From: Promicromonospora sukumoe
Lineage (GTDB): Bacteria > Actinomycetota > Actinomycetes > Actinomycetales > Cellulomonadaceae
Direction of reading: 5' to 3'
Assembly (NCBI RefSeq): GCF_014137995.1
Contig: NZ_JACGWV010000001.1
Location: 1,302,001 to 1,366,000 of the forward strand
Length of the DNA: 64,000 nt
Shown here piece by piece: positions 15,289-58,259 of the stretch. Both the position numbers and the translations under genes were made by a program. The notes beneath the pieces were generated by a model. That model searched no databases, was not told where the DNA came from, and was given only the letters and a program-made list of their open reading frames with translations. Position 1 is the stretch's first letter. Each line of letters opens with the position of its first letter.

Positions 15289-16329
15289 CTAGGCGGTGGG
15301 CGGGGTCGTGGGCGGGGGAGCGGCCGCGGGCGTGGCCGCGGGCGCGCGCGGCGCCGGGCCCGACGACTCGCGCAGCACCAGCCCGGTCGGCAGCCGGATC
15401 TGCTCGGCGTCCTGCGTGGCCCGCCCGGCGAACTGCTCGATCAGCAGCTCGACGGCCAGCCGCCCCGCGTGCGCGCCGGGCCCGCCGAGCGTCGTCAGCG
15501 ACGGGTGCACGAACTCGGAGGCGAAGATGTCGTCGAAGCCGACCACGCTGATGTCGTCCGGCACCGTGATGCCCCGCTGCGTCAGCCGGCGCACCACGCC
15601 GAACGCCAGCAGGTCGTTGTGCGCGACGATCGCCGTCGCGCCGGTGCGCAGCGCGCCGTCGGCCGCCGCGCCGCCGTTGGCGACGTTGGGCGTGTACGGG
15701 CCCACACGGTGCGCCGTCAGGCCGTGCTCCTCGGCGCCCGCGCTCAGCGCCGCCCAGCGCACGGCGCCCATCCAGGAGCCCGGCGGCCCGGCGCAGTAGG
15801 CGAAGCTCCGGTGACCCAGCGAGGCGAGGTGCTCCAGGATCTGCTGGCAGCCCGCGCCGACCGCGAGCGTGACGCTGGTCAGCCCGGCCAGCTCGCGGTT
15901 GAGCAGCACCACGCGGTGCTTCTCCGCGAGGGCGAGCAGCGCGTCGTCGGCGAGCCGGCTGGCCGCCAGGACGAACCCGTCCACGGTGGGGGACAGGTCG
16001 CGGACCTGGGTCTCCTCGATGCGCTGCGACTCCTCGGCGTTGACGATCACGAGCGTGACGTCGGACGCCTTGGCGCGTTGCTCGGCGCCGCGGATGAGCT
16101 CGAAGAAGTGCGGGTTGGTGATGTCGGACAGGACCATCGCGATGGTCCGGTGCCGCCCGCCCGGCAGCGCACGGTTCTGCGGGCTGTGCTCGTAGCCGAG
16201 CTCGGCGGCCGCGGCGAGCACCCGGCGCCGCGTCGCCTCGTTGACCCGGCCGGGCCGGTTGAAGGTGCGCGAGACCGTCGAGGCGGCCACGCCGGCCGCC
16301 TCGGCGACGTCGTAGATCGTGGGCTGCAC
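15289..16329 (-). CDS. LacI family transcriptional regulator
   Basis: 346 residues from GTG 16329, which places the HTH at the extreme N-terminus as usual (PTIYDVAEAAGVAASTVSRTFNRPGRVNEATRRRV). Upstream codons up to 16377 are open but unlikely. The periplasmic-binding-protein-like sensor domain follows from about residue 60 (RTIAMVLSDITNPHFFELIRGAE ... AIVAHNDLLAFGVVRRL ... SVVGFDDIFASEFVHPSLTT). A Pro/Ala-rich tail ends it. It diverges from the TRAP/shikimate operon, so that operon is the likely target, with shikimate, quinate or a derivative as the likely inducer. The latter is an inference. Confidence 0.9.
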   Translation of the reverse strand: MQPTIYDVAEAAGVAASTVSRTFNRPGRVNEATRRRVLAAAAELGYEHSPQNRALPGGRHRTIAMVLSDITNPHFFELIRGAEQRAKASDVTLVIVNAEESQRIEETQVRDLSPTVDGFVLAASRLADDALLALAEKHRVVLLNRELAGLTSVTLAVGAGCQQILEHLASLGHRSFAYCAGPPGSWMGAVRWAALSAGAEEHGLTAHRVGPYTPNVANGGAAADGALRTGATAIVAHNDLLAFGVVRRLTQRGITVPDDISVVGFDDIFASEFVHPSLTTLGGPGAHAGRLAVELLIEQFAGRATQDAEQIRLPTGLVLRESSGPAPRAPAATPAAAPPPTTPPTA

Positions 16330-16369
16330 CCGGGCATCTACGCATATGTCCGGCAACTTTGGCAACTGC

Positions 16370-16399
16370 TTGCGCAACTTGCCGGACGGTTTCTACTGT
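16370..16399 (+). promoter_or_regulatory. TRAP operon promoter with LacI-type operator
   Basis: TTGCGCAA (16370-16377) is a palindrome with the central CpG typical of LacI-family sites; its first six bases are also a plausible -35. TACTGT (16394-16399) lies 18 bases further as -10. A LacI protein bound here would block RNA polymerase. Confidence 0.5.
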
Positions 16400-16413
16400 C
16401 GCCGCAGCTACGA

Positions 16414-16464
16414 CGCCACACGCCGACGTGTGGCGGCGACCGCGGCGCACACGGACGTGCGCCG
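16414..16464 (+). other. Two tandem hairpins in the TRAP operon leader
   Basis: Two G+C-rich hairpins with identical geometry: arms 16414-16421/16428-16435 and 16443-16450/16457-16464, each 8 bp with a 6-base loop, separated by seven bases. They lie between the -10 box and the ribosome site (AAGGGG 16473-16478). They could be RNA structures or paired protein-binding dyads. Confidence 0.5.
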
Positions 16465-16487
16465 CCGGACGGAAGGGGCTCGTCCCG

Positions 16488-16508
16488 ATGTACGTGAACC
16501 ACGCATGA
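16488..16508 (+). CDS. Six-codon upstream reading frame (MYVNHA) coupled to dctQ
   Basis: ATG 16488 has AAGGGG nine bases upstream, a better-placed ribosome site than the one for the dctQ start at 16505, which has none. The frame reads Met-Tyr-Val-Asn-His-Ala and its TGA overlaps the dctQ ATG as ATGA (16505-16508). A translated leader that re-initiates at dctQ is the simplest explanation. It is short enough to be chance. Confidence 0.4.
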   Translation: MYVNHA

Positions 16509-17083
16509 AGCACGGCCTGAGACGACTCGTTGCTCTGCTCACCGGCGTGGAGCTCGCCATCGCGTGCCTGGCCACGGCCCTGATCTTCGTGCTTATCCTG
16601 TTCCAGGCGGCGCAGCGCTACCTGCCCGTGCCGCAGATCATCTGGGCGGGCGAGCTGTCGCAGTTCGGGCTGATCTGGCTGACGTTCGTCGCGGCCGGCG
16701 TGCTGGTCACCCGCAACGGCCACATCGCCATCCAGCTCATCGACAACGTGCCCGGCCCCCTCGTGGCGCGCGTGGTGCAGACGCTCGCCATGGTCCTGGT
16801 CGCGGTCATCTCCGCGGCCTTCACCTGGGCGTGCTGGGAGCTGGTGCACTCCGCGGGCTTCCTCACCTCGCCCGCGCTGCGGCTGCCGATGTCCTGGGTC
16901 TACGCGCTCGTGCTGGTCGGCCTGGTCAGCGCGACCGTCCGCGCGGCGGTCGGCGCGGTGCAGATCGCCTGCTACGGGCCGCCGCCGCCCGACCACGCGG
17001 GCCTCCACGACGAGCTGGGTCCGGGCGCGCTCGCCGCGCCCGCGGGCCCGCCGGCAGGCCCGGCCGAGAGCGAGGGCCCGTGA
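16505..17083 (+). CDS. TRAP transporter small permease (DctQ-type)
   Basis: 192 residues with four predicted membrane helices (about 10-32, 48-66, 85-107, 128-150) and the family core WAGELSQFGLIWLTFVAAGVLVTRNGHIAI, matching the E-x-x-R/F-x-x-x-W region of DctQ proteins. The C-terminal tail (about 35 residues) is Pro/Gly/Ala-rich and cytosolic. It pairs with the large permease to drive Na+-coupled uptake. Stop and next start overlap (TGATG, 17081-17085). The start at ATG 16505 lacks its own ribosome site and is probably reached by coupling from the six-codon leader frame. Confidence 0.88.
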   Translation: MKHGLRRLVALLTGVELAIACLATALIFVLILFQAAQRYLPVPQIIWAGELSQFGLIWLTFVAAGVLVTRNGHIAIQLIDNVPGPLVARVVQTLAMVLVAVISAAFTWACWELVHSAGFLTSPALRLPMSWVYALVLVGLVSATVRAAVGAVQIACYGPPPPDHAGLHDELGPGALAAPAGPPAGPAESEGP

Positions 17084-18357
17084 TGACCTCGCTGCTCCTG
17101 CTGATCACCATCATGGTGCTGCTGACCCTCCGCGTCCCGGTCGCGTTCTCGTTCCTCGGGCCCGGCCTGGGCTACCTGCTCGTCGAGGGCCAGTCGCTCG
17201 GCCTGCCGATGCGGCTGGTCGCCGACGCCACCGGCAACTTCGTGCTGCTGGCCATCCCGCTGTTCATCCTGCTCGGCGTGGTCGCCAACCACGCGGGCAT
17301 CGCGGACCGCCTGTTCGACTTCGCGCTCGCCCTGTTCGGCCGGGTGCGCGGCGGGCTCGGCTACGTGAGCGTCGGCGTCAGCCTCGGCTTCTCCTGGATG
17401 AGCGGCTCCGCCGTGGCCGACGCCGCCGCGCTGAGCAAGGTCGAGATCCCGCCGATGCTGCGCGCCGGCTACTCCCGGCGGTTCGGCCTCGGCGTCGTGG
17501 GTGCGTCCGCGCTCATCGCGCCGGTCATGCCGCCGAGCATCCCGGCCGTCATCTTCGCGGGCCTCGCGACCGTGTCCACGGGCGCGCTGTTCGCGGCGTC
17601 CGTGGTGCCGGCGCTCCTGATGGTCGTCGGCCTCTGCGTGGTGGTGTTCCTGCTGGTCCGGCGTCAGCCCAACATCCGGCACGTCGGGTTCTCATGGGGG
17701 CGCGTGGGCGAGACCGGCAAGCGGGTCGTGCTGCCGCTGGGGGCGCCCGTGGTCATCCTCGGCGGCATCCTGGGCGGCCTCTTCACGCCGACCGAGGCCG
17801 CCGCCGTCGGCGCCGCGTACATGATGGCGCTCGGCTTCGCCTACCGCCGGCTCAGCGTCCGGGACCTGCCCAAGATCTTCGTCGAGACCGCGCTGACCAC
17901 GGCCGCGATCATGCTGATCGTCTCGTCGGCCGCGCTGCTCGGGTACGTGCTGGCCCTGGAGCGGGTACCCCAGGCGCTGGCCGAGCTCGTGCTCGGGATC
18001 ACCGACGACGGCACGGTCTTCCTGCTGCTGGTGCTGCTCCTCATGCTGGTGCTCGGCACGGTCGGCGACGCGACCCCGATCCTCGTGCTCGTCGTGCCGA
18101 TCCTGATGCCGATCGCCACCGCCCTGGGCGTCGACCCGCTCGTGCTCGGCGTCGTGATGATCATCTCGCTGATGATCGGCCTGCTCACGCCCCCGGTCGG
18201 CACGGTCCTCTTCGTCCTCAGCTCGACCCAGAAGGTGCCGGTCGCCGAGGTCTTCTGGGGCACCCTCCCGTTCATGGTGCCGCTGACCCTGTGCTGCGTC
18301 CTGATCATCTTCTTCCCCGGCCTCGCCACCTGGCTGCCGGGCGTGCTCGGCCTCTGA
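17083..18357 (+). CDS. TRAP transporter large permease (DctM-type)
   Basis: 424 residues with about twelve hydrophobic segments. DctM landmarks are present: LLAIPLFILLGVVANHAGIADRLF, GLGYVSVGVSLGFSWMSGSAVADAAAL (the SGSA region linked to ion and substrate binding), VVGASALIAPVMPPSIPAVIF, and LFTPTEAAAVGAAY. It is the transport channel of the TRAP system, working with the small permease and the DctP-type lipoprotein. It sits second in an operon whose enzymes act on shikimate-type acids, which argues for quinate/shikimate as cargo. Confidence 0.92.
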   Translation: MTSLLLLITIMVLLTLRVPVAFSFLGPGLGYLLVEGQSLGLPMRLVADATGNFVLLAIPLFILLGVVANHAGIADRLFDFALALFGRVRGGLGYVSVGVSLGFSWMSGSAVADAAALSKVEIPPMLRAGYSRRFGLGVVGASALIAPVMPPSIPAVIFAGLATVSTGALFAASVVPALLMVVGLCVVVFLLVRRQPNIRHVGFSWGRVGETGKRVVLPLGAPVVILGGILGGLFTPTEAAAVGAAYMMALGFAYRRLSVRDLPKIFVETALTTAAIMLIVSSAALLGYVLALERVPQALAELVLGITDDGTVFLLLVLLLMLVLGTVGDATPILVLVVPILMPIATALGVDPLVLGVVMIISLMIGLLTPPVGTVLFVLSSTQKVPVAEVFWGTLPFMVPLTLCCVLIIFFPGLATWLPGVLGL

Positions 18358-18373
18358 CCCGAAAGGAACCCTC

Positions 18374-19393
18374 ATGAACGTTCGTCGCACCGCCGCCGCG
18401 AGCGCGGCCGTGGTCCTGCCCCTCGCCCTGCTCACCGCCTGCGGTGGCACCGGGCCCGACGACGCCGCCGGAGGCGGCGAGGTCGTGCTGACGCTCGCCC
18501 ACAGCTACACCGAGGACCAGCCGCAGCACGTCTGCGGCGCCCAGGTCATCAAGGAGGAGGCCGAGGCCGCCGACGTCGGGATCACCGTCGAGGTCTACCC
18601 CAACAGCCAGCTCGGCGGGGACGCCGACCGGATCGCGTCGGTGCAGGCCAGCGACGTGGACATCGACATCCAGGGCGCCTCGGCGCTCGCGGCCGTGTAC
18701 GAGCCGGCCGGCGTCGTGGACGCGGTCTACGTGTTCGACGACGCCGCGCACCTCGCCCGGTTCTTCGCCGACGGCTCGGCCGACCAGCTCGCGGCCGACT
18801 TCAAGGAGGCCTCCGGGGGCGTGTCGATCCTCGGCGCCTGGTCGGCCGGGGCCCGGCAGTTCACCGCGGACCGGCCCATCCGCGAGCCCGCGGACCTCGA
18901 CGGGCTGCGCATGCGGTTCCCGGGCTCCGCGCAGTACCTGCTCAACGCCCAGGCCCTGGGCGCGCAGGCCACGGAGGTCGCCTACGAGGAGCTGTACCTC
19001 GCCCTGCAGCAGGGGGTCGTCGACGGGCAGGAGAACCCGCTGACCAACATCCACGCCAGCAACCTCGTCGAGGTGCAGGAGTACCTGAGCATGTCCGACC
19101 ACGGGCAGAACTCGAACCTGATCGTGGCCGCGCCGTCGTACGACGCCGAGCTGGACGACGACCAGCGCGCCGCCCTGGACGCGGCCGTCGCGGCCGCCGT
19201 CGAACGCATGCCCGGCTGCGTGGACGAGGCCGAGCAGGAGATCCTCGACGCCTGGGCGCAGGAGGGCGCCGTCGAGATCGTCGACGACGTGGACCAGGAG
19301 GCGTTCGCGGAGCGGACCGACGCCTGGTTCCAGGAGAACCTGCAGGGCGACTCGCTCGTGGTCTACGAGGCCATCCGGGGCTCCGCGCAGTGA
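18374..19393 (+). CDS. TRAP transporter substrate-binding lipoprotein (DctP-type)
   Basis: 339 residues. A lipoprotein signal (MNVRRTAAASAAVV ... LTAC, Cys at about 23) anchors it outside the membrane, as needed in an organism without an outer membrane. Family features follow: LTLAHSYTEDQPQHVCG, EVYPNSQLGGDADRIASVQ, DLDGLRMRFPGSAQYLLNAQALGAQATEVAYEELYLALQQGVVDGQENPLTNI. The Arg in LRMRFPG normally binds the carboxylate of the ligand, consistent with an organic-acid substrate. AAAGGAA precedes ATG 18374. Its stop overlaps the next start as GTGA. Confidence 0.92.
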   Translation: MNVRRTAAASAAVVLPLALLTACGGTGPDDAAGGGEVVLTLAHSYTEDQPQHVCGAQVIKEEAEAADVGITVEVYPNSQLGGDADRIASVQASDVDIDIQGASALAAVYEPAGVVDAVYVFDDAAHLARFFADGSADQLAADFKEASGGVSILGAWSAGARQFTADRPIREPADLDGLRMRFPGSAQYLLNAQALGAQATEVAYEELYLALQQGVVDGQENPLTNIHASNLVEVQEYLSMSDHGQNSNLIVAAPSYDAELDDDQRAALDAAVAAAVERMPGCVDEAEQEILDAWAQEGAVEIVDDVDQEAFAERTDAWFQENLQGDSLVVYEAIRGSAQ

Positions 19394-20322
19394 CGCCGCG
19401 CGGCCGGGACGAGCGGCCCGGGCGCCGGTACCGGGTGGCGCTCCTGGGCAACGGCATCGGGGCCTCGCTGTCGCCCGCGCTGCACGTGGCGGAGGCGCGG
19501 CACCTCGGCCTCGACTACACCTACCGCACGGTCGACCTCCTCGGCCGGGCGCGGGTGGACCTGGGCGCGGAGCTCCGCCTGCTGGAGGACGCCGGGTACG
19601 CCGCCACCAACGTGACCCACCCCTACAAGCAGGCCGTCCTGGAGCACGTGACCGACCTCAGCCCCACCGCGCGGCGCCTCGGCTCCGCCAACCTGGTGCT
19701 GCTCGACGGCGGCCGCCGCACCGCGCACAACACCGACCAGCCGGGGTTCCGGGGCGCGCTCGCGGGGTTCCTCGGGGACGACGGCGCCCGGGGCACAGTT
19801 CTCCAGGTCGGCGCCGGGGGAGCGGGGCGCGCCACCGTCGCCGCCCTGCTCGACCTGGGGGTGGGCACCGTCGTCGTGCACGACGCCGACCCGGCGGCCG
19901 TCGCGACCCTGCTCGACCGGTTCACCGACGCCGTCGGCCCCCAGGGCTCCGGACCGCCCCGGCTGCTGGGCAGCGGCGGCCGGCTGGAGCACTGGCTGCC
20001 CCGGGCCGACGGCGTCGTGCACGTGACCCCGGTCGGCATGGCCGAGCACCCCGGGGTCGCGTTCGACGTCGGCCGGCTCGGCCCCGCGGCCTGGGTCGCC
20101 GAGGTGGTCTACCGGCCCCTGGAGACGGAGCTGCTGCGCCGCGCGCGGGCGCGCGGCCTGGCGACGCTCGACGGCGGCGGCATGGCCGTGGGCCAGGCCG
20201 TCGAGAGCCTGCGCCTCATCACCGGCCTCGAACCCGACGCCGCGCGCATGCACGCGCACTTCCGCCGGCTCGTCGCCGGCCCCGACACCTCAGCCGCACC
20301 CGACCCCCTGGAGGAGGCCTGA
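19390..20322 (+). CDS. Shikimate/quinate dehydrogenase (AroE family, catabolic type)
   Basis: 310 residues from GTG 19390. Motifs: GIGASLSPALH (substrate), NVTHPYKQAV with the catalytic lysine, HNTDQPGF with the partner aspartate, nucleotide loop VGAGGAGRA, and DGGGMAVGQAV with the conserved Gln. All active-site residues of the AroE fold are kept. Placement between a TRAP uptake system and a dehydroshikimate dehydratase argues that it works in the catabolic direction, oxidising shikimate (or quinate) with NAD+, like QsuD-type paralogues, not in aromatic biosynthesis. The cofactor loop was not used to decide NAD versus NADP. Confidence 0.88.
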   Translation: MTPRGRDERPGRRYRVALLGNGIGASLSPALHVAEARHLGLDYTYRTVDLLGRARVDLGAELRLLEDAGYAATNVTHPYKQAVLEHVTDLSPTARRLGSANLVLLDGGRRTAHNTDQPGFRGALAGFLGDDGARGTVLQVGAGGAGRATVAALLDLGVGTVVVHDADPAAVATLLDRFTDAVGPQGSGPPRLLGSGGRLEHWLPRADGVVHVTPVGMAEHPGVAFDVGRLGPAAWVAEVVYRPLETELLRRARARGLATLDGGGMAVGQAVESLRLITGLEPDAARMHAHFRRLVAGPDTSAAPDPLEEA

Positions 20323-20323
20323 C

Positions 20324-22249
20324 ATGCGCAGGTCCATCGCGACCGTCTGCCTCAGCGGCAGCCTGGAGGACAAGCTCCACGCCTGCGCCGACGCCGGGTT
20401 CGACGGCGTCGAGATCTTCGAGCCCGACCTCGTCGTCACCGACCGCAGCCCCGAGGAGATCCGGGCGCTCGCGGACCGGCTCGGCCTGAGCCTGGACCTG
20501 TACCAGCCGTTCCGCGACTTCGAGGGCGTGGGCCCCGGCCAGCTCGAGGACAACCTGCGCCGGGCCCGGGCGCGGTTCGAGACCATGCGGCGCCTCGGCG
20601 TCGGCACCGTGCTGGTGTGCAGCAACGTCGCGACCGCCACCACCGGCTCCGACGAGGTGGCGGCCGAGCAGCTGCGCCACCTGGGCGACCTCGCGGCGTC
20701 GTACGGCGTCCGCGTGGCCTACGAGGCGCTGGCCTGGGGCCGGTACGTGGACGACTACCGGCGCTCCTGGGAGATCGCGCGGCTCGCCGACCACGAGGCG
20801 GTCGGCGTGTGCCTGGACAGCTTTCACATCCTCTCGCGCGGGCACGACCCCGCCGGGATCGAGGAGATCCCGGGGGAGAAGATCTTCTTCGTCCAGCTCG
20901 CGGACGCCCCGGCGCTCACCATGGACGTGCTCTCCTGGAGCCGGCACCACCGGCTGTTCCCCGGCGAGGGGGCGTGGGACCTCGGGCGGTTCGTCACCCA
21001 CCTCGTCCGAGCGGGGTACACCGGGCCGCTGTCGCTGGAGGTCTTCAACGACGTCTTCCGGCAGACCGACACCCGGCGCACCGCCCGGCACGCCCTGCGC
21101 TCCCTCGTCTGGCTGGAGGATCGGGCGGCCCGGCTCCTGGCCGACGACGACGGCGCCGGCGACGGTTCCGCGGGCGAACGCGCAACGGCCGCCGGGGTCG
21201 CGCTCGACCGGATCGCCGACGTGGACGTGCCCACGGGCTACGACTACGTGGAGATCAAGGCCGAGGACACCGGCGAGGTCGAGGTGGTGCTCGACCAGCT
21301 CGGGCTGTCCTTCCGGGGCCAGCACCGGACCAAGCCGGTGCGCCTGTGGTCGTCGGGCGGCGCGCGGATCGTGCTCAACGAGCAGCACGCGCGGGACCTG
21401 AAACCGCACCTCGCGGGGATCGGCCTCGGCGTGGCCGACGCGGGCGCGGCGAGCGACCGGGCCAGGGCCCTGGCGGTGCGGGCGGCACCCCGCCGCACCC
21501 AGGCCGGGGAGGCCGACCTGGCCGGGTTCGTGGCGCCGAGCGGGCTCGAGGTGTTCCTGAACGACCGGCGCACCGAGACCGACGCCGGCCCGGAGCCCGC
21601 CTGGGCCGCCGAGTTCCACCGCGGCCGCCCGGGCGGCGCCGGCGAGATCGCCGGGATCGACCACGTCAACGTCTCGCACGGCTGGGACACCCACGACGAG
21701 GCGGTGCTCTTCTGGACCACCGTGCTCGGGCTGGAGCGGCCGACGGCGACCGAGGCCGCCGGCCCGCAGGGACTGGTCCGCAGCCAGGTGGTGCGCACGC
21801 GGGACGGCGCCGTGCGCATCTCCCTGAACGTCGGGCCCGTCGCCGTCTCCCACCCGCAGCACGTCGCCCTGGCCTGCACCGACATCTTCGAGGTCGCCCG
21901 CCGGGCGCAGGACCGCGGGCTGCGCAGGGTGCCGGTGCCCGACAACTACTACGACGACCTACGGGCCCGGTTCGGGCTCGACGACGCGACGCTGGACCGC
22001 CTGCGCGACCACCAGCTCATGTACGACCGCTCGGCGGCCGGCGAGTTCTGGCACTTCTACACGCCCCCGGTCGGGCGGGTGTGCTTCGAGGTGGTCCAGC
22101 GCGGCGGCGCCTACGACGTCTACGCCGGGGACAACACCCCGGTGCTCCTCGCGGCCCAGGACCGCCTGGACCGGGAGGCTGCCGGGGCTAGCGGGACGAC
22201 GCGTCGTCGTCCGCCGCCGGCGGGTCGTCCACCAGCCGCGGGTCCGTGA
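20324..22249 (+). CDS. quiC: 3-dehydroshikimate dehydratase, two-domain (QuiC-type)
   Basis: 641 residues. Residues about 1-275 are a sugar-phosphate-isomerase/AP-endonuclease-2 type TIM barrel (FDGVEIFEPDLV, VAYEALAWGRYVDDY, VGVCLDSFHIL, FFVQLADAP, GPLSLEVFND) carrying the metal ligands for dehydration of 3-dehydroshikimate to protocatechuate. Residues about 300-620 resemble 4-hydroxyphenylpyruvate dioxygenase, with the metal triad His (IDHVNVSH), His (HVALACTD) and Glu (VCFEVVQ). This fusion is the known QuiC1 layout. It is the last gene of the operon and starts one base after the dehydrogenase stop. Its last 62 bases, a Pro-rich tail, overlap the convergent gene. Confidence 0.88.
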   Translation: MRRSIATVCLSGSLEDKLHACADAGFDGVEIFEPDLVVTDRSPEEIRALADRLGLSLDLYQPFRDFEGVGPGQLEDNLRRARARFETMRRLGVGTVLVCSNVATATTGSDEVAAEQLRHLGDLAASYGVRVAYEALAWGRYVDDYRRSWEIARLADHEAVGVCLDSFHILSRGHDPAGIEEIPGEKIFFVQLADAPALTMDVLSWSRHHRLFPGEGAWDLGRFVTHLVRAGYTGPLSLEVFNDVFRQTDTRRTARHALRSLVWLEDRAARLLADDDGAGDGSAGERATAAGVALDRIADVDVPTGYDYVEIKAEDTGEVEVVLDQLGLSFRGQHRTKPVRLWSSGGARIVLNEQHARDLKPHLAGIGLGVADAGAASDRARALAVRAAPRRTQAGEADLAGFVAPSGLEVFLNDRRTETDAGPEPAWAAEFHRGRPGGAGEIAGIDHVNVSHGWDTHDEAVLFWTTVLGLERPTATEAAGPQGLVRSQVVRTRDGAVRISLNVGPVAVSHPQHVALACTDIFEVARRAQDRGLRRVPVPDNYYDDLRARFGLDDATLDRLRDHQLMYDRSAAGEFWHFYTPPVGRVCFEVVQRGGAYDVYAGDNTPVLLAAQDRLDREAAGASGTTRRRPPPAGRPPAAGP

Positions 22250-52216: not shown

Positions 52217-52247
52217 ATTGTCAACAAGATTGTTGATGGACTACGGT
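52217..52247 (+). promoter_or_regulatory. galD operon promoter with GntR-type operator
   Basis: TTGTCA (52219-52224) and TACGGT (52242-52247) are spaced by 17 bases. TCAACAA (52221-52227) and TTGTTGA (52230-52236) form a perfect dyad over the -35 and spacer. ATTGTCAACAA (52217-52227) matches, inverted, the ATTGTTGACAAT before the GntR gene at 57576. Confidence 0.7.
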
Positions 52248-52278
52248 GCCGGGACACGCCTCACAGAGGAGGAGCGCA

Positions 52279-53493
52279 GTGACCGCCACCGATGGCCCGT
52301 CCTACCGTCGTGCCCGCACCGCGGGCTCGCAGACCGCGGTGCCCGCGCTCGTCATGCGCGGCGGCACGTCGCGGGGCCTGTTCCTCGACGCCCGCACCCT
52401 GCCCGCCGACGCCGCCGCCCGCGACGCCGTGCTGCTCGCAGCGATGGGCTCGCCCGACCCCCGCCAGATCGACGGACTGGGCGGCGCGCACCCCCTGACC
52501 AGCAAGGTCGGGATCGTGGCGCCCGGGTCCGGCGACGTCGACGTGGAGTGGACGTTCGCCCAGCTCCAGCCCGACTCCGACGTCGTGGACACCACGCCGA
52601 ACTGCGGCAACATGCTCGCCGCGGTGCTCCCGTTCGCGATCGAGACCGGCCTCCTCGTGCCCGACGGCGAGACCACCACCGCCCGGGTGCTGACGCGCAA
52701 CACCGGCGCGGTCGCGGACATCACCGTCTCCACACCGCGCGGGCCCGACGGCGCCCGGTACGTCGAGTACGCCGGTGACGCCCGGATCGACGGCGTGCCC
52801 GGCACGGCCGCGCCCGTGCGCATCGCGTTCCTCGACACCGCCGGCTCCGTGGCCGGCAGCCTGCTGCCCACCGGGAGCGTGCGCGACACCGTCGCCGTCC
52901 CGGTCCTCGGCGACGTCGAGGTGACCCTGATCGACAACGGCCAGCCGCTCGTGATCGTGCGGGCCGACCGCCTCGGCGCGCGCGGCGACGAGACCCCGGC
53001 CGAGATCGACGCCGACGCCGGCCTGCGCGACCGCGTCGAGCGCCTGCGCCTCGTCTGCGGCCGGGTCATGGGGCTCGGCGACGTCACCGCGAAGAACTAC
53101 CCCAAGATGACGCTCGTCTCCGCGCCCCGGGCGGGCGGGAGCATCGCCACCCGCTCGCTCATCCCGCGCGTGGCGCACCAGTCCATCGGCGTGCTCGCCG
53201 CTGTCACCGTCGCGACGGCGTGCGTGCTGCCCGGGAGCGTGGCGCACGAGGTCGCCGTCGTGCCCGACGGCGCCCACGAGGTCACCGTCTCCGTCGAGCA
53301 CCCCTCGGGAGAGTTCTCCGTCTCGCTCGCGCTGGACGCCGGCGACCCGCCCGCCGTCGTCGGCTCCGCGCTCCTGCGCACCGCCCGCCTGCTCATGGCG
53401 GGAGAGGTGCTGGTGCCGCGCGCGGTCTGGGACCCGACCACCGAACCGACCGAAGACCAGCCCGAGGACCAGAACGAGGAGGCCACCGCGTGA
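52279..53493 (+). CDS. galD: 4-oxalomesaconate tautomerase (GalD, PrpF family)
   Basis: 404 residues from GTG 52279 (AGAGGAGG upstream). PrpF/diaminopimelate-epimerase-like fold: VMRGGTSRGLFLDARTLP, GLGGAHPLTSKVGIV, TPNCGNMLAAVLPFAIE with the active-site cysteine, ARVLTRNTG, and VAHQSIGVLAAVTVATA. In gallate and 4,5-cleavage pathways GalD converts the keto form of 4-oxalomesaconate into the enol substrate of the hydratase. It starts a tightly packed operon with hydratase, aldolase and lactonase genes, which makes this assignment stronger than PrpF (methylcitrate). The tail TEPTEDQPEDQNEE is acidic. Confidence 0.88.
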   Translation: MTATDGPSYRRARTAGSQTAVPALVMRGGTSRGLFLDARTLPADAAARDAVLLAAMGSPDPRQIDGLGGAHPLTSKVGIVAPGSGDVDVEWTFAQLQPDSDVVDTTPNCGNMLAAVLPFAIETGLLVPDGETTTARVLTRNTGAVADITVSTPRGPDGARYVEYAGDARIDGVPGTAAPVRIAFLDTAGSVAGSLLPTGSVRDTVAVPVLGDVEVTLIDNGQPLVIVRADRLGARGDETPAEIDADAGLRDRVERLRLVCGRVMGLGDVTAKNYPKMTLVSAPRAGGSIATRSLIPRVAHQSIGVLAAVTVATACVLPGSVAHEVAVVPDGAHEVTVSVEHPSGEFSVSLALDAGDPPAVVGSALLRTARLLMAGEVLVPRAVWDPTTEPTEDQPEDQNEEATA

Positions 53494-54536
53494 TCATCGA
53501 CGTGCACGGCCACTACACGACCGCCCCCGAACCGCTCGGCGCCTGGCGCGACGCCCAGGTCGCCGCCCTGGCCGACCCGGGCCTGGCCCCCGACCCGGCA
53601 GGCCCCCGCATCAGCGACGACCAGATCCGCGAGACCCTCCAGGCGCACCAGCTCCGGCAGATGGATGACCGCGGCATCGACGTCACCGTCTTCTCGCCCC
53701 GCGCGTCGTTCATGGCGCACCACGTCGGGGACCTCGCGACGTCGACCGCGTGGGCGCGGATCTGCAACGACCTGTGCGCCCGCGTGGCGGGGCTCTTCCC
53801 GGACCGGTTCGCGCCCGGTGCCATGCTGCCGCAGTCGCCCGGCGCCGACCCGGCGACGTCGGTCCCCGAGATCGAGCGGGCCGTCACCGAGCTGGGCGCC
53901 GTCACCGTGAACCTCAACCCCGACCCGTCGGGCGGGCACTGGACGGCGCCGCCCCTGACCGACCGGTCCTGGTACCCCGTCTACGAGAAGCTGGTCGAGC
54001 TCGACGTGCCCGCCATGGTGCACGTCTCCACGAGCTGCAACCCCGCCTTCCACACCACCGGCGCCCACTACCTCAACGCTGACACCACGGTGTTCATGCA
54101 GCTGCTGCAGGGCGACCTGTTCGCCGACTTCCCGGACCTGCGGCTCGTGATCCCGCACGGCGGGGGAGCGGTGCCCTACCACTGGGGCCGGTTCCGCGGC
54201 CTCGCCCAGGCCCTGGGCAAGCCGGAGCCCGAGGAGATGCTCGGCACCAACGTCTTCTTCGACACCTGCGTCTACCACCAGCCCGGCGCCGACCTGCTGC
54301 TCGACGTGATCCCGCGCGACGGCGTCCTGTTCGCCTCGGAGATGATCGGCGCCGTGCGCGGCGTCGACCCGCGCACCGGCCACCACTTCGACGACACGCG
54401 CCGCTACGTCGAGTCCCACGCCGCGACCCGGGGCCTGGACGACGACGCCGTGCGCGCCCTGTTCGAGACCAACGCCCGCCGTGTCTACCCGCTGCTCGAC
54501 CGGCGCCTGACCGAGAGGGGGCTGACCCGTGCCTGA
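53490..54536 (+). CDS. ligJ: 4-oxalomesaconate hydratase (LigJ-type amidohydrolase)
   Basis: 348 residues from GTG 53490, overlapping the galD stop as GTGA. Amidohydrolase-2 fold: [12 protein letters not shown] (HxH metal site), [86 protein letters not shown], and [25 protein letters not shown] near the end, all as in LigJ. It adds water to 4-oxalomesaconate to give 4-carboxy-4-hydroxy-2-oxoadipate. It works in the cytosol between GalD and the aldolase and overlaps the next gene by eight bases. Confidence 0.9.
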
Positions 54537-55212
54537 GCTCGGAGTCGTCCACACGAACATCGACCGCGCCGACCCGGCCGCCGTCGAGGCGCTGTCGCGG
54601 TTCGGCGTCGCCACGGTCCACGAGGCCCTGGGCCGCCTCGGCCTGATGCGGCCGTACCTGCGCCCCGTCTACGAGGGCGCCGCGATGTGCGGCACCGCGG
54701 TGACCGTGCTGCTCCAGCCCGGCGACAACTGGATGCTGCACGTCGCCGCCGAGCAGGTGCGGCCCGGCGACGTCGTCGTGGCCGCCTGCACCACCGAGAG
54801 CGAGGACGGGTTCTTCGGCGACCTGCTCGCCACCTCGATGCAGGCGCGCGGCGCCCGCGGCCTGGTGATCGACGGCGGCTGCCGCGACGTCGACACCCTG
54901 CGCGCCATGGACTTCCCGGTGTTCTCCCGCGCGATCAACGCCAGGGGCACCGTCAAGGCCACGCTCGGCTCGGTCAATGTGCCGGTCGTCTGCGCCAACG
55001 CCCTGGTCACCCCGGGCGACGTGGTCGTGGCGGACGCCGACGGCGTCGTCGTCGTGCCCGCCGCCCGGGCCGCCGAGGTGGCCGAGGCCGCCCGCCGGCG
55101 CGAGGACAACGAGACCGCCAAGCGGGAGCGGTTCGCCGCAGGCGAGCTGGGGCTGGACCTCTACGACATGCGACCGCGGCTGGCCGAGCTCGGCCTGACC
55201 TACACGGACTGA
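54529..55212 (+). CDS. ligK: 4-carboxy-4-hydroxy-2-oxoadipate aldolase (LigK/GalC, RraA-like)
   Basis: 227 residues from GTG 54529. RraA-type fold: [86 protein letters not shown] (Arg and Asp of the aldolase site), [25 protein letters not shown]. This divalent-metal aldolase splits 4-carboxy-4-hydroxy-2-oxoadipate into pyruvate and oxaloacetate. RraA itself, the RNase E inhibitor, is shorter and lacks the last helical part ([24 protein letters not shown]), which here matches the aldolases. It ends the pathway encoded in this operon. Confidence 0.9.
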
Positions 55213-55234
55213 TCCCCACCCACAAGGACCCACC

Positions 55235-56149
55235 ATGACCGACAAGGACGTCACCCCCGGCTGGCTGCACTGGTACCAGGGGCCGACCAGGCCCACCTTC
55301 ACGCTGCCCGACGGCGCCGTGGACGCGCACTGCCACGTGTTCGGCCCCGCCGACCAGTTCCCCTTCGCGCCCGAGCGCAAGTACACGCCCGTCGACGCCT
55401 CCGCCCAGCAGCTCTTCGACCTGCGCGACCACCTGGGCGTGGACCGCAACGTCATCGTGCAGGCCACGTGCCACGGCGCGGACAACAGCGCCCTGGTCGA
55501 CGCCCTGGAGCGCTCCGAGGGACGGGCCCGCGGCGTGGCGACCGTCCGCGCCGACATCACGGACGAGGAGCTGCGCCGCCTGCACGACGCCGGGGTGCGC
55601 GGCGTCCGCTTCAACTTCGTGCGCCGGCTGGTCGACGCCGTACCCACGGCGGCGCTGGAGACGATCGCGGCGCGGATCGCCCCGCTGGGCTGGCACGTCG
55701 TCGTCTACTTCGAGGCCGCCGACTTGCCGGACCTGAAGGACTTCTTCGCGACCCTTCCGGTGCCCCTGGTCGTGGACCACATGGGCCGCCCCGACGTCAC
55801 GAAGGACCCCGACGGGCCGGAGTTCGCGGAGTTCCTCGACTTCGTGGCCGCGAACGACGTGTGGGTCAAGGTCTCCTGCCCGGAGCGCCTCACCGTCACC
55901 GGACCGGCCGCCCTGGACGGCGAGCGCCACGCGTACACCGACGTCGTGCCGTTCGCCCGCAGGGTCGTCGAGCGCTTCCCCGACCGCGTGCTGTGGGGCA
56001 CCGACTGGCCCCACCCCAACCTCAAGGACCACATGCCCGACGACGGGCTGCTCGTGGACCACATCCCGCACGTCGCCCCCACCCCCGAGCTGCGGCAGGC
56101 CCTGCTCGTGGACAACCCCCGCCGCCTGTACTGGCCGACGGAGGCCTGA
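55235..56149 (+). CDS. ligI: 2-pyrone-4,6-dicarboxylate lactonase (LigI)
   Basis: 304 residues. Amidohydrolase family: VDAHCHVFGPADQFPFAPERKYTP (HxH), RNVIVQATCHGADNSALVDAL, GVRGVRFNFVRRLVD, VVDHMGRPDVTKD, WVKVSCPERLTVTG, and WGTDWPHPNLKDHMPDDGLLVD with the catalytic Asp. LigI opens the lactone ring of 2-pyrone-4,6-dicarboxylate and is metal-independent or weakly metal-dependent despite the fold. AAGGA precedes ATG 55235. Its presence beside GalD, LigJ and LigK makes the operon complete from 2-pyrone-4,6-dicarboxylate onward. Confidence 0.92.
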   Translation: MTDKDVTPGWLHWYQGPTRPTFTLPDGAVDAHCHVFGPADQFPFAPERKYTPVDASAQQLFDLRDHLGVDRNVIVQATCHGADNSALVDALERSEGRARGVATVRADITDEELRRLHDAGVRGVRFNFVRRLVDAVPTAALETIAARIAPLGWHVVVYFEAADLPDLKDFFATLPVPLVVDHMGRPDVTKDPDGPEFAEFLDFVAANDVWVKVSCPERLTVTGPAALDGERHAYTDVVPFARRVVERFPDRVLWGTDWPHPNLKDHMPDDGLLVDHIPHVAPTPELRQALLVDNPRRLYWPTEA

Positions 56150-56192
56150 GCACCCCGGGCGACGACGCCCGAGGAAACAGAAGGAGACCCCC

Positions 56193-57566
56193 TTGCACAC
56201 CCGGACCAACGCGGCCAACCGGATCGACCGGCTGCCGATCTCGAGGTTCCACAAGACGACGATGGTCGCCCTGGCCTTCACCTACTTCTTCGAGTTCGCG
56301 GACATCAACACGTTCGCGATCACCGCCCCCGTGATCCGCGAGCAGTGGGGCGCGAGCGTCAACCACGTGGCGTACGTGACGTCCCTGTCGTTCGTCGGCA
56401 TGTTCATCGGGTCGATCGTGGCCGGCGGGCTCGCCGACCGGCTCGGCCGCAAGCGCACGCTGGTGGCGACCACGGTCTGGTTCTCGGTGTGGTCGTTCGC
56501 GACGATCTTCGCCTGGGACATCTTCTCGATGGGCCTGTTCCGCGTGATGACCAGCGCGGGCCTGTCCGCGATGACGGTCGTGGCCGTGGTCTACATCAAC
56601 GAGCTCTTCCCGAAGGCCGTGCGCGGCAAGTACCAGGCGTACGTGATCATGATCGGCATCTGCGGCACGCCCGCCACCAACCTCATCGCCTCGTTCGTGG
56701 TGCCGATCAACGAGTGGTCCTGGCGGCTGGTCTACCTGTGGGGCTCGCTCGGCGTGCTGTTCCTGTTCTTCGTGCGCAAGCTCGCCGAGTCGCCGCAGTG
56801 GCTGGAGTCCCGGGGCCGGCACGACGAGGCCGACGCGGTGCTCCGGGACATGGAGGCGCAGGCGGTCGCGCAGCACGGCGCCCTGCCCGACGCCGCCGTC
56901 CCCGTCGAGACCGGACCCGCCACCCGGGCCGGGCTGGCGATGCTCAAGGACAAGAAGTTCCTCTACCCGACGCTCCTGCTGTCGGTGCTGTGGATCACCC
57001 AGACCATCGGCTTCTTCGGGTTCTCGTCCTGGGCGCCCACGCTGCTGGCCGCCGAGGGCATCAGCGTCGAGGACTCCATCTTCTTCGTCGCGCTGACCAC
57101 CGTGGGCGCGCCGCTGGGCTCGTTCCTCGCGGCGCAGGTGACCGACCGGTTCGAACGCAAGTGGTGCCTGGTGGTGTTCGCCCTGGTCATCGCCGGGTCG
57201 GGGCTCCTGTACGGGCTGACGTTCACGCCGGTGCTGATCGTCGTGTTCGGGTTCCTGGTCAACCTGTTCGAGCGCGGCTACACGGCCCTGGCCTACGCGT
57301 ACTCGCCCGAGCTGTACGACACCAAGGGACGTTCGCTCGGCACGTCGATCTCGTACGGGCTGGGGCGGCTGTCCAACGCCGTCGGGCCGCTGATCATCGC
57401 CGGCCTGTACAGCGGGCACGGCTACCAGACCGTCTTCTACTTCATCGCGGGCACCTGGGTGGTGGGCGCCGTGGCCCTGGCGATCTTCGGTCCGGCCACG
57501 CGCCGGGCGCGGCTGGCGGCGGCTGCGTCGGCGGCGTCGGCGCCGGAGGTGGACGCCAGCCGTTAA
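56193..57566 (+). CDS. MFS transporter, probable importer of an aromatic-derived dicarboxylate
   Basis: 457 residues from TTG 56193 (GAAGGAGA upstream). Twelve helices: TTMVALAFTYFFEFADINTFAITAPVI, GGLADRLGRKRTLVATT (motif A), a second-half loop QVTDRFERKW, and LAYAYSPELYDTKGRSLGTSISYGLGRLSNAVGPLI, as in sugar-porter/aromatic-acid symporter subfamilies (SP/AAHS-like), not drug exporters. Asp in the first helix (FADIN) matches the acid-symport position of AAHS proteins. As the operon's only transporter its cargo is probably 2-pyrone-4,6-dicarboxylate, protocatechuate or gallate; which one is open. Confidence 0.85.
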   Translation: MHTRTNAANRIDRLPISRFHKTTMVALAFTYFFEFADINTFAITAPVIREQWGASVNHVAYVTSLSFVGMFIGSIVAGGLADRLGRKRTLVATTVWFSVWSFATIFAWDIFSMGLFRVMTSAGLSAMTVVAVVYINELFPKAVRGKYQAYVIMIGICGTPATNLIASFVVPINEWSWRLVYLWGSLGVLFLFFVRKLAESPQWLESRGRHDEADAVLRDMEAQAVAQHGALPDAAVPVETGPATRAGLAMLKDKKFLYPTLLLSVLWITQTIGFFGFSSWAPTLLAAEGISVEDSIFFVALTTVGAPLGSFLAAQVTDRFERKWCLVVFALVIAGSGLLYGLTFTPVLIVVFGFLVNLFERGYTALAYAYSPELYDTKGRSLGTSISYGLGRLSNAVGPLIIAGLYSGHGYQTVFYFIAGTWVVGAVALAIFGPATRRARLAAAASAASAPEVDASR

Positions 57567-57575
57567 GGTGCTCAT

Positions 57576-57587
57576 ATTGTTGACAAT
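57576..57587 (+). promoter_or_regulatory. GntR operator before its own gene
   Basis: ATTGTTGACAAT, arms ATTGT/ACAAT around TG, lies ten bases after the MFS stop and 46 before the GntR start; it repeats the operator motif at 52217-52227 in inverted orientation. The contained TTGACA may also be a -35. Confidence 0.6.
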
Positions 57588-57632
57588 CGCTGCGCGCCCG
57601 GGGGTGGCGGGCGACGACGTGAGAGGGACGTG

Positions 57633-58259
57633 ATGGTGGACGACGCCCAGGTGCGGGACGAGCTGCGAGCGGCGATCCTGCGGGGTGACTTCGCGCCACG
57701 TCAGCGGCTCGTCGAGGCCGACCTCTGTGAGCAGTTCGGCGCGCGCCGGTTCGCGGTGCGCGCCGCCCTGCAGGACCTCGTGGCCGAGGGGCTCGTCGAG
57801 CGCCAGCAGAACCGGGGGGCGCGCATCCGCGAGATCAGCCTGGCCGAGGCGATCGAGATCAGCGAGATCCGCCGCGTCGTCGAGGGGCTGGTGGCCGCTC
57901 GGGCGGCCGAGCGGCTCACCGCCGCCGACGCGAAGCGGCTCTCCGGGATCGGCCGCCGCATGCGCCAGGCGGTCGACGGCGGCGAGGCGGCCGTGTACAG
58001 CGACCTCAACGCCGAGCTGCACGCGACGCTGCGCGAGATCGCCGGGCACGAGACCGCCGACCGGATCGTGGCGCAGCTCCACGGTCAGATGGTGCGCCAC
58101 CAGTTCGCGCTCTCGCGCGTCCCCGGCCGGTCGGCGGTCTCGCTGGCTCAGCACGAGGCGGTCATCGCCGCCGTCGTCGCGCGCGACCCCGAGGCGGCCG
58201 AGGCCGCGATGCGGGCCCACATCACCTCCGTCATCGAGGTGCTGCGCTCGCTGGCCTGA
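57633..58259 (+). CDS. GntR family transcriptional regulator (FadR-like, FCD domain)
   Basis: 208 residues from ATG 57633 (GTG 57630 is one codon earlier; GAGAGGGA lies upstream). Winged helix: VRDELRAAILRGDFAPRQRLVEADLCEQFGARRFAVRAALQDLVAEGLVERQQNRGARI. FCD domain: EAIEISEIRRVVEGLVAARAAERLT, YSDLNAELHATLREIAGHETADRIVAQL with the metal-binding Asp/His, and SRVPGRSAVSLAQHEAVIAAVVARDPEAAEAAMRAHI. It probably binds the ATTGTCAACAA-type sites here and at 52217, controlling the operon in response to 2-pyrone-4,6-dicarboxylate or an intermediate. It overlaps the convergent doxX gene by 29 bases. Confidence 0.9.
   Translation: MVDDAQVRDELRAAILRGDFAPRQRLVEADLCEQFGARRFAVRAALQDLVAEGLVERQQNRGARIREISLAEAIEISEIRRVVEGLVAARAAERLTAADAKRLSGIGRRMRQAVDGGEAAVYSDLNAELHATLREIAGHETADRIVAQLHGQMVRHQFALSRVPGRSAVSLAQHEAVIAAVVARDPEAAEAAMRAHITSVIEVLRSLA

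Follow-up and report, generated by a model that had tools for sequence, protein, structure and literature searches.

The window analysed here is a stretch of 64,000 nucleotides from the Promicromonospora sukumoe genome (contig NZ_JACGWV010000001.1, positions 1,302,001 to 1,366,000), and the subject of this work is a putative operon for the use of 2-pyrone-4,6-dicarboxylate (PDC) at window positions 52218-58259. PDC, known from plants of the rose family and from the breakdown of lignin, is usually discussed as an intermediate inside cells and as a building block for polymers. The operon holds six genes in the order galD-ligJ-ligK-ligI-MFS-gntR, where MFS denotes a transporter gene of the major facilitator superfamily; all six lie on the plus strand and their frames are intact. 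The galD and ligJ genes overlap by 4 bp and ligJ and ligK by 8 bp, and gaps of 22, 43 and 63 bp precede ligI, the MFS gene and gntR, respectively.

The route from PDC to central metabolites

The first gene, galD (52279..53493, plus strand), begins with a GTG start codon after GAGGAGG and encodes a 4-oxalomesaconate tautomerase that exceeds the cut-off of NF033377 (471.6 vs 440) and matches the LigU structures 6p3j, 6p3h and 6p3k. The product of ligJ (53490..54536, plus strand), a 4-oxalomesaconate (KCH) hydratase of the amidohydrolase family (PF04909), matches the solved structures 2gwg at 532.6 bits and 6dxq/6dwv at 482.1 bits. The ligK gene (54529..55212, plus strand) encodes a 4-carboxy-4-hydroxy-2-oxoadipate (CHA) aldolase/oxaloacetate decarboxylase, with 394.4 against the TIGR02798 cut-off of 304.5 and a match to 3noj at 265.8 bits. 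The PDC hydrolase gene ligI (55235..56149, plus strand) completes the set. Its product matches the solved PDC hydrolase 4d8l at 344.8 bits over residues 11-303, and HCH, DHMGRP and GTDWPHPN of LigI, taken as metal and catalytic motifs, align with that protein. Equivalog cut-offs are passed by GalD and LigK, and no NCBIfam model names LigI above its cut-off. The LigI encoded next to ligABC in Comamonas testosteroni (locus L062; G and L numbers denote our genomes and loci) is 73% identical to the window protein.

Judged from sequence, GalD, LigJ, LigK and LigI account for all enzyme steps from PDC to pyruvate and oxaloacetate, as a preliminary description of this DNA had proposed, and profile and solved-structure matches for all four bear this out. 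All enzymes of the operon belong to known kinds.

Search for PDC-forming enzymes

The preliminary description had placed no protocatechuate 4,5-dioxygenase, gallate dioxygenase or LigC-type dehydrogenase in the window, and the same holds for the whole genome (6.5 Mb, 4 contigs, 98.81% complete), in which profile searches returned 0 matches each to PF02900 (LigB fold), PF07746 (LigA) and PF19858 (C-terminal domain of LigC). As positive controls, the whole genomes of ten of the 57 ligA-linked loci described below were searched; each profile matched in 10/10 of these ligABC-type genomes, with scores of 271-310 bits for PF02900. For lack of any profile match, we rejected the idea that the window genome encodes a LigB-type dioxygenase or LigC elsewhere.

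A further candidate was a dioxygenase family of the VOC type met beside galD and ligK in G107, G027, G002 and locus L037. At E 1e-10 the window genome has a sole match to this family, at 129.9 bits compared with 459-688 bits for the family itself. This match is HpaD (430.6 vs a cut-off of 321.4), encoded next to HpaE (650.1 vs 638.35), HpaH (352.1 vs 351.5) and an HpaI-like gene under its cut-off. A VOC ring-cleavage enzyme of the galD/ligK-linked family was rejected for this genome, its single match being HpaD in an hpa cluster. The hpa (homoprotocatechuate) genes, with a GntR-type gene, lie at L151 5535-10464 (G000:C1 about 1403.5-1408.5 kb), ~43-48 kb downstream of the PDC operon.

Protocatechuate is probably handled by ortho cleavage, as two adjacent PF00775 (intradiol dioxygenase-family) genes at C1:2441919-2442795 would be PcaGH. 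Elsewhere in the window, positions 15289-22249 hold a LacI-type gene, TRAP transporter genes, a shikimate dehydrogenase (294.7 vs cut-off 235) and a QuiC-like protein, a probable operon for the conversion of quinate or shikimate to protocatechuate. The QuiC-like protein (20324-22249) scores 499.6, under the cut-off of 1200, and carries HPPD-like VOC domains; it is taken as a dehydroshikimate dehydratase, not as a ring-cleavage enzyme.

The transporter and its pairing with ligI

The MFS gene (56193..57566, plus strand), identified by profile matches, encodes the putative PDC importer. Its earlier assignment to the acid-symport type stands as far as relatedness goes, but not as proven membership of the family, since the protein reaches 203.5 where TIGR00895, the model of the aromatic acid/H+ symport family, requires 418.55; it is a relative of that type. 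The signature of the family is DGxD in the first transmembrane helix. At this place the window protein has E34-F-A-D37, which aligns with D-G-F-D of PmdK and departs from the signature, and both E34 and D37 are invariant across 22 aligned MFS sequences (window MFS included). Identity to PmdK is 25%, and an AlphaFold2 model is all-helical with a mean pLDDT of 81.6. Among the 120 listed of 630 relatives at E 1e-40, Promicromonospora proteins are 94-96% identical, and the listed proteins go by unspecific names such as 'MFS transporter' or 'putative metabolite:H+ symporter'. A plasmid search returned only 31-42% identical relatives, in 6 records.

The genes around ligI were compared in loci found by scanning genome contigs with the window LigI. 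The comparison covers the best 80 of at least 581 confirmed relatives, so selected that proportions are not population frequencies. A sharp split emerged. In 21 of the 80 loci a 67-84% identical MFS gene lies directly 3' of ligI, with no ligA, ligB or ligC in the available flanks, some of which are short; in 57, ligA is present and an MFS of this kind is not. The remaining 2 (L042 and L068) stop at a contig edge. A maximum-likelihood analysis of 89 LigI proteins joins L042 and all 27 MFS-linked rows, among them the window, in one clade with support of 99/99, recovered in 100% of 200 bootstrap trees under midpoint rooting. The neighbourhood counts therefore reflect one origin and not many events. 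In the midpoint-rooted tree the rows adjacent to this clade are five ligABC-linked ones, four of them from Streptomyces or Kitasatospora, and the simplest reading is a single origin in which ligABC would have been lost and the MFS gene gained.

A less biased count comes from 394 Actinomycetes genomes, with up to 5 LigI and 4 MFS candidates scored per genome. LigI is matched (E 1e-30) in 7/394, of which four are of the MFS type (G000, G354, G430, G456) and three of the ligABC type (G619, G518, G258). The MFS search (E 1e-100) returned 4/394 genomes, the same G000, G354, G430 and G456, and in each the MFS gene adjoins ligI. Within this sample, the MFS travels with the PDC hydrolase and none was found without ligI. 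The genome-wide searches for LigA, LigB and LigC were confined to genomes other than G430, G354, G456, G619, G518 and G258.

Regulator and operator

The last gene, gntR (57630..58259, plus strand), encodes a GntR/FCD-type regulator (PF00392 at 57.4 bits, PF07729 at 90.0 bits), in line with the single GntR regulator described previously. A TTGTYRACAA palindrome occurs twice in the operon on the plus strand. The copy TTGTCAACAA (52218..52227) lies 61 bp upstream of galD, and its reverse complement TTGTTGACAA (57577..57586) lies 53 bp upstream of gntR. The second copy includes TTGACA, which fits repression. From the positions of the gene and of these operators, the regulator probably represses both the operon and its own gene, and its effector may be PDC or a downstream acid.

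The exact palindrome is found at 3 sites in the 6.5-Mb genome, 2 of them at the PDC operon, and the reversed control at 0. Relaxation dilutes this picture: with up to 2 mismatches the operator is unenriched in the window (8 matches vs 4.23 expected, a number reached by 8/100 shuffles), and the looser pattern TTGTNNACAA gives 7 genomic sites vs 4 for the reversed control, its four extra sites being unlike TTGTYRACAA. The third exact copy (C1:1965189) is flanked on one side by a second GntR/FCD gene and on the other by a GH39 glycosidase gene that ABC transporter genes follow. On this basis we rejected the idea that an exact operator copy controls a dioxygenase at a distance. For exact sites, a dioxygenase and dehydrogenase co-regulated with the operon, the finding that would have refuted the preliminary reading, did not appear. 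The region of the third site (L004 8390-15230, G000:C1 near 1965189) is a candidate for cross-talk or for a site proper to the second GntR/FCD regulator.

The operator is conserved beyond this genome. The survey took in the 12 loci of compact form introduced below and L037, L050, L056, L065, L068, L074, L078 and L134-L136, other scattered loci lying outside it. TTGTYRACAA stands 5' of galD in 12/12 compact loci (the window, L013, L014, L015, L016, L017, L021, L042, L092, L131, L132 and L133). In the scattered Amycolatopsis loci L037, L050, L074 and L078 it stands 5' of ligJ, gntR and ligK, and in Pseudonocardia L065 5' of ligJ, ligI and gntR. At the corresponding genes of Rhodococcus L056 and Rhodopseudomonas L068 there was none.

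Compact cassettes in other genomes

The compact form, galD-ligJ-ligK-ligI-MFS with gntR, occurs in 12 genomes (G000, G077, G128, G003, G200-G205, G209 and G221). The exceptions to the full set are G077, in which ligI is deleted, G209 (L042), which is cut 3' of ligI, and G203 (L016), with no gntR in the available flank. The same compact cassette with its operator is present in Nocardioides, Streptomyces, Arthrobacter and another genus of the host family, and in two other genomes of the host genus the operon genes are 89-97% identical. Across 20 loci compared, no neighbour outside the cassette recurs across genera; the genes that recur in at least 3 of the 20 are either common to the three host-genus loci or a response regulator in three Streptomyces loci. 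LigC (PF19858) is matched in none of the 12 compact genomes, and 5/12 (G000, G077, G128, which is 83% complete, G003 and G221) show no LigB fold, LigA, LigC or VOC protein of the family above.

Proposed use of extracellular PDC and competing explanations

Based on these observations, we read the operon as a self-contained system for the uptake and use of extracellular PDC, with a probability of roughly 0.78. The MFS protein would import PDC, probably with protons, and LigI would open the PDC lactone to 4-oxalomesaconate. GalD would tautomerise this acid, LigJ would hydrate it and LigK would split the resulting compound into pyruvate and oxaloacetate. GntR would repress transcription at TTGTYRACAA 5' of galD and of its own gene and would be released on PDC or a downstream acid. 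What carries this reading is the identity of the genes, the lack of a match to any known PDC-making enzyme, the conservation of the operator and the pairing of ligI with the MFS gene. The preliminary description had likewise suggested that the module may take up free PDC instead of serving an internal pathway and finds support here, uptake itself being something we infer.

The outside PDC would come from litter of Rosoideae plants or from PDC-releasing bacteria, either of which the host may meet; the preliminary description had pointed to other organisms as a source. According to the available excerpts of PMC9415522, eleven Rosoideae genera contain 0.1-2% PDC and strawberry leaf 10.4-17.5 mg/g; Geum and Sibbaldianthe contain it according to an excerpt of PMC10304466 that cites Wilkes and Glasl 2001. 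Further, an excerpt of PMC12314914 describes an mgaC mutant of Pseudomonas sp. NGC7 that forms PDC from syringate in 95% molar yield. If the cassette does use PDC as a nutrient, it provides a candidate PDC importer, a possible PDC sensor in GntR and its operator, and candidate degraders of a plant metabolite of such abundance, and the question 'who eats plant PDC?' becomes directly testable.

Several points weigh against this reading. The biological origin of strawberry-leaf PDC is unsettled in the excerpts of PMC9415522. Searches of solved structures and characterised proteins yielded nothing closely related to the MFS, and a PDC-forming gene may be missing from a genome that is 98.81% complete. 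Among the compact genomes, G201, G202, G203, G204, G205 and G209 each encode 1-2 LigB-fold proteins, albeit at 98-148 bits vs 271-310 for true LigB; the one in G201 adjoins a flavin-type monooxygenase, as judged by eye. G203 is the only compact genome with a LigA match, a weak one of 46.9 bits beside a LigB-fold protein of 114.6 bits, and G200 has two proteins of the galD/ligK-linked VOC family. In G077 (L132, G077:C1, 10306-11754) an in-frame deletion of ligI leaves one LigK-MFS frame of 482 aa; the deletion may be genuine or an error of the assembly. Further evidence comes from relatives in the same LigI clade with scattered genes (ligJ-ligI-MFS or ligI-MFS) in Amycolatopsis, Streptomyces, Nocardia, Rhodococcus and Pseudonocardia. 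The VOC dioxygenase of the galD/ligK type is encoded at 459 bits or more in 13/17 of these genomes, its position beside galD/ligK being checked at L037 only, and LigA is matched above 100 bits in 4/14, with 2 more weak matches (74.1 and 46.9 bits). LigI in these relatives may therefore belong to an internal pathway. A general claim for the entire clade loses strength through this; the claim for the window genome does not.

The same relatives lend some weight to an explanation that we consider unlikely, namely that the operon supplies the later steps of an internal pathway for gallate, 3-O-methylgallate or protocatechuate 4,5-cleavage, with a ring-cleavage gene that went unrecognised or is missing from the assembly and with the MFS importing the aromatic acid. 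At L037 a VOC gene follows ligK-galD near ligJ-ligI-MFS, and TTGTYRACAA precedes ligJ, gntR and ligK. This explanation is hard to square with the window genome, which has no LigB-fold, LigA or LigC match, HpaD as its sole VOC match and the intradiol pair as the probable outlet for protocatechuate. It is still less probable that the MFS exports PDC or another acid of the pathway, or imports a different substrate such as an ester of PDC or some other pyrone, and that the operon serves detoxification or another lactone. The protein sequence discloses neither direction nor substrate, and the score falls under the aromatic acid family cut-offs. Export, however, would be pointless in an operon whose enzymes take PDC all the way to pyruvate and oxaloacetate. 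Moreover, every match of the MFS adjoins ligI, also in loci whose galD and ligK are located elsewhere, and this links what the MFS transports to the substrate of LigI. Finally, the patchy distribution of the genes (the GalD family occurs in 7/200 genomes of the host's family) and the loss of ligI in the sister genome G077 would suit a decaying, functionless remnant of a ligABC operon, an idea to which we give hardly any credence: six intact frames, the recurrence of one compact cassette with its operator in four other genera, and high identity between congeneric genomes all speak against it.

Beyond the window genome, we would tentatively, at slightly less than even odds, extend the uptake reading to a six-gene actinobacterial cassette that moves between genera as a unit and serves free environmental PDC, mainly from Rosoideae. 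The cassette would comprise a clade of dedicated PDC importers within an MFS family that has no described function and a GntR switch that reads TTGTYRACAA, and it would go back to a single origin in a ligI lineage that lost ligABC and gained the MFS gene.

Comparison with known systems

We know of no earlier candidate PDC importer. In the open-access literature, among the matches listed and at the level of titles and abstract openings, with most subscription papers outside this set, no cassette without ring cleavage, PDC importer or PDC regulon is described. The closest known systems are the protocatechuate 4,5-cleavage operons lig of Sphingobium SYK-6 and pmd of Comamonas, which share the chemistry of LigI, LigJ, LigK and GalD/LigU; LigJ, LigK and LigI are 66-73% identical to those of Comamonas testosteroni L062. 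In contrast to these operons, the window genome has no ligA, ligB or ligC match, its MFS is a different one and its regulator is of the GntR/FCD type. The symporters PcaK, PmdK and MhpT belong to the same superfamily as the window MFS, for which an all-helical fold is predicted, but the window protein falls under their family cut-offs and carries ExxD where PmdK has DGxD in the first transmembrane helix.

Pseudomonas putida galTAP and galBCD, as given in the available part of PMC12314914, share the GalD and GalC/LigK steps and a transporter with the window operon. They differ in that the window operon lacks the gallate dioxygenase GalA, has LigJ in place of GalB, includes LigI and has a GntR/FCD regulator in place of the LysR-type GalR. 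Similarly, the mgaABC syringate route of Pseudomonas sp. NGC7, in the same excerpts (PMC12314914), feeds the same lower acids. That strain is reported to have no PDC hydrolase gene and to be unable to convert PDC (PMC12314914), whereas the window encodes LigI and lacks mgaAB-like genes.

The relatives also contain ring-cleavage candidates of other kinds. VOC genes adjoin galD and ligK at L135 7961-8938, L136 8185-9159, L134 7973-8992 and L037 17770-18726, and a GntR gene is close by. The L037 protein comes near catechol 2,3-dioxygenase (314.8 vs a cut-off of 320.2). In L135 and L136 the VOC gene is accompanied by a PIG-L protein that may be a GalB-type hydratase. Known gallate dioxygenases have the LigB fold; this VOC family may be a ring-cleavage enzyme of another fold that yields 4-oxalomesaconate. 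LigAB-like pairs are found in L137, L138, L139 and L140, L137 also having a hydrolase and a folate-binding demethylase-type protein. At L139 5154-11730 (G217) such a pair lies without LigC and together with an alpha/beta hydrolase, a LigM O-demethylase (903.5 vs 580), a PIG-L protein and LigK, a cluster that resembles the mgaABC route of NGC7 as far as the excerpts of PMC12314914 describe it.

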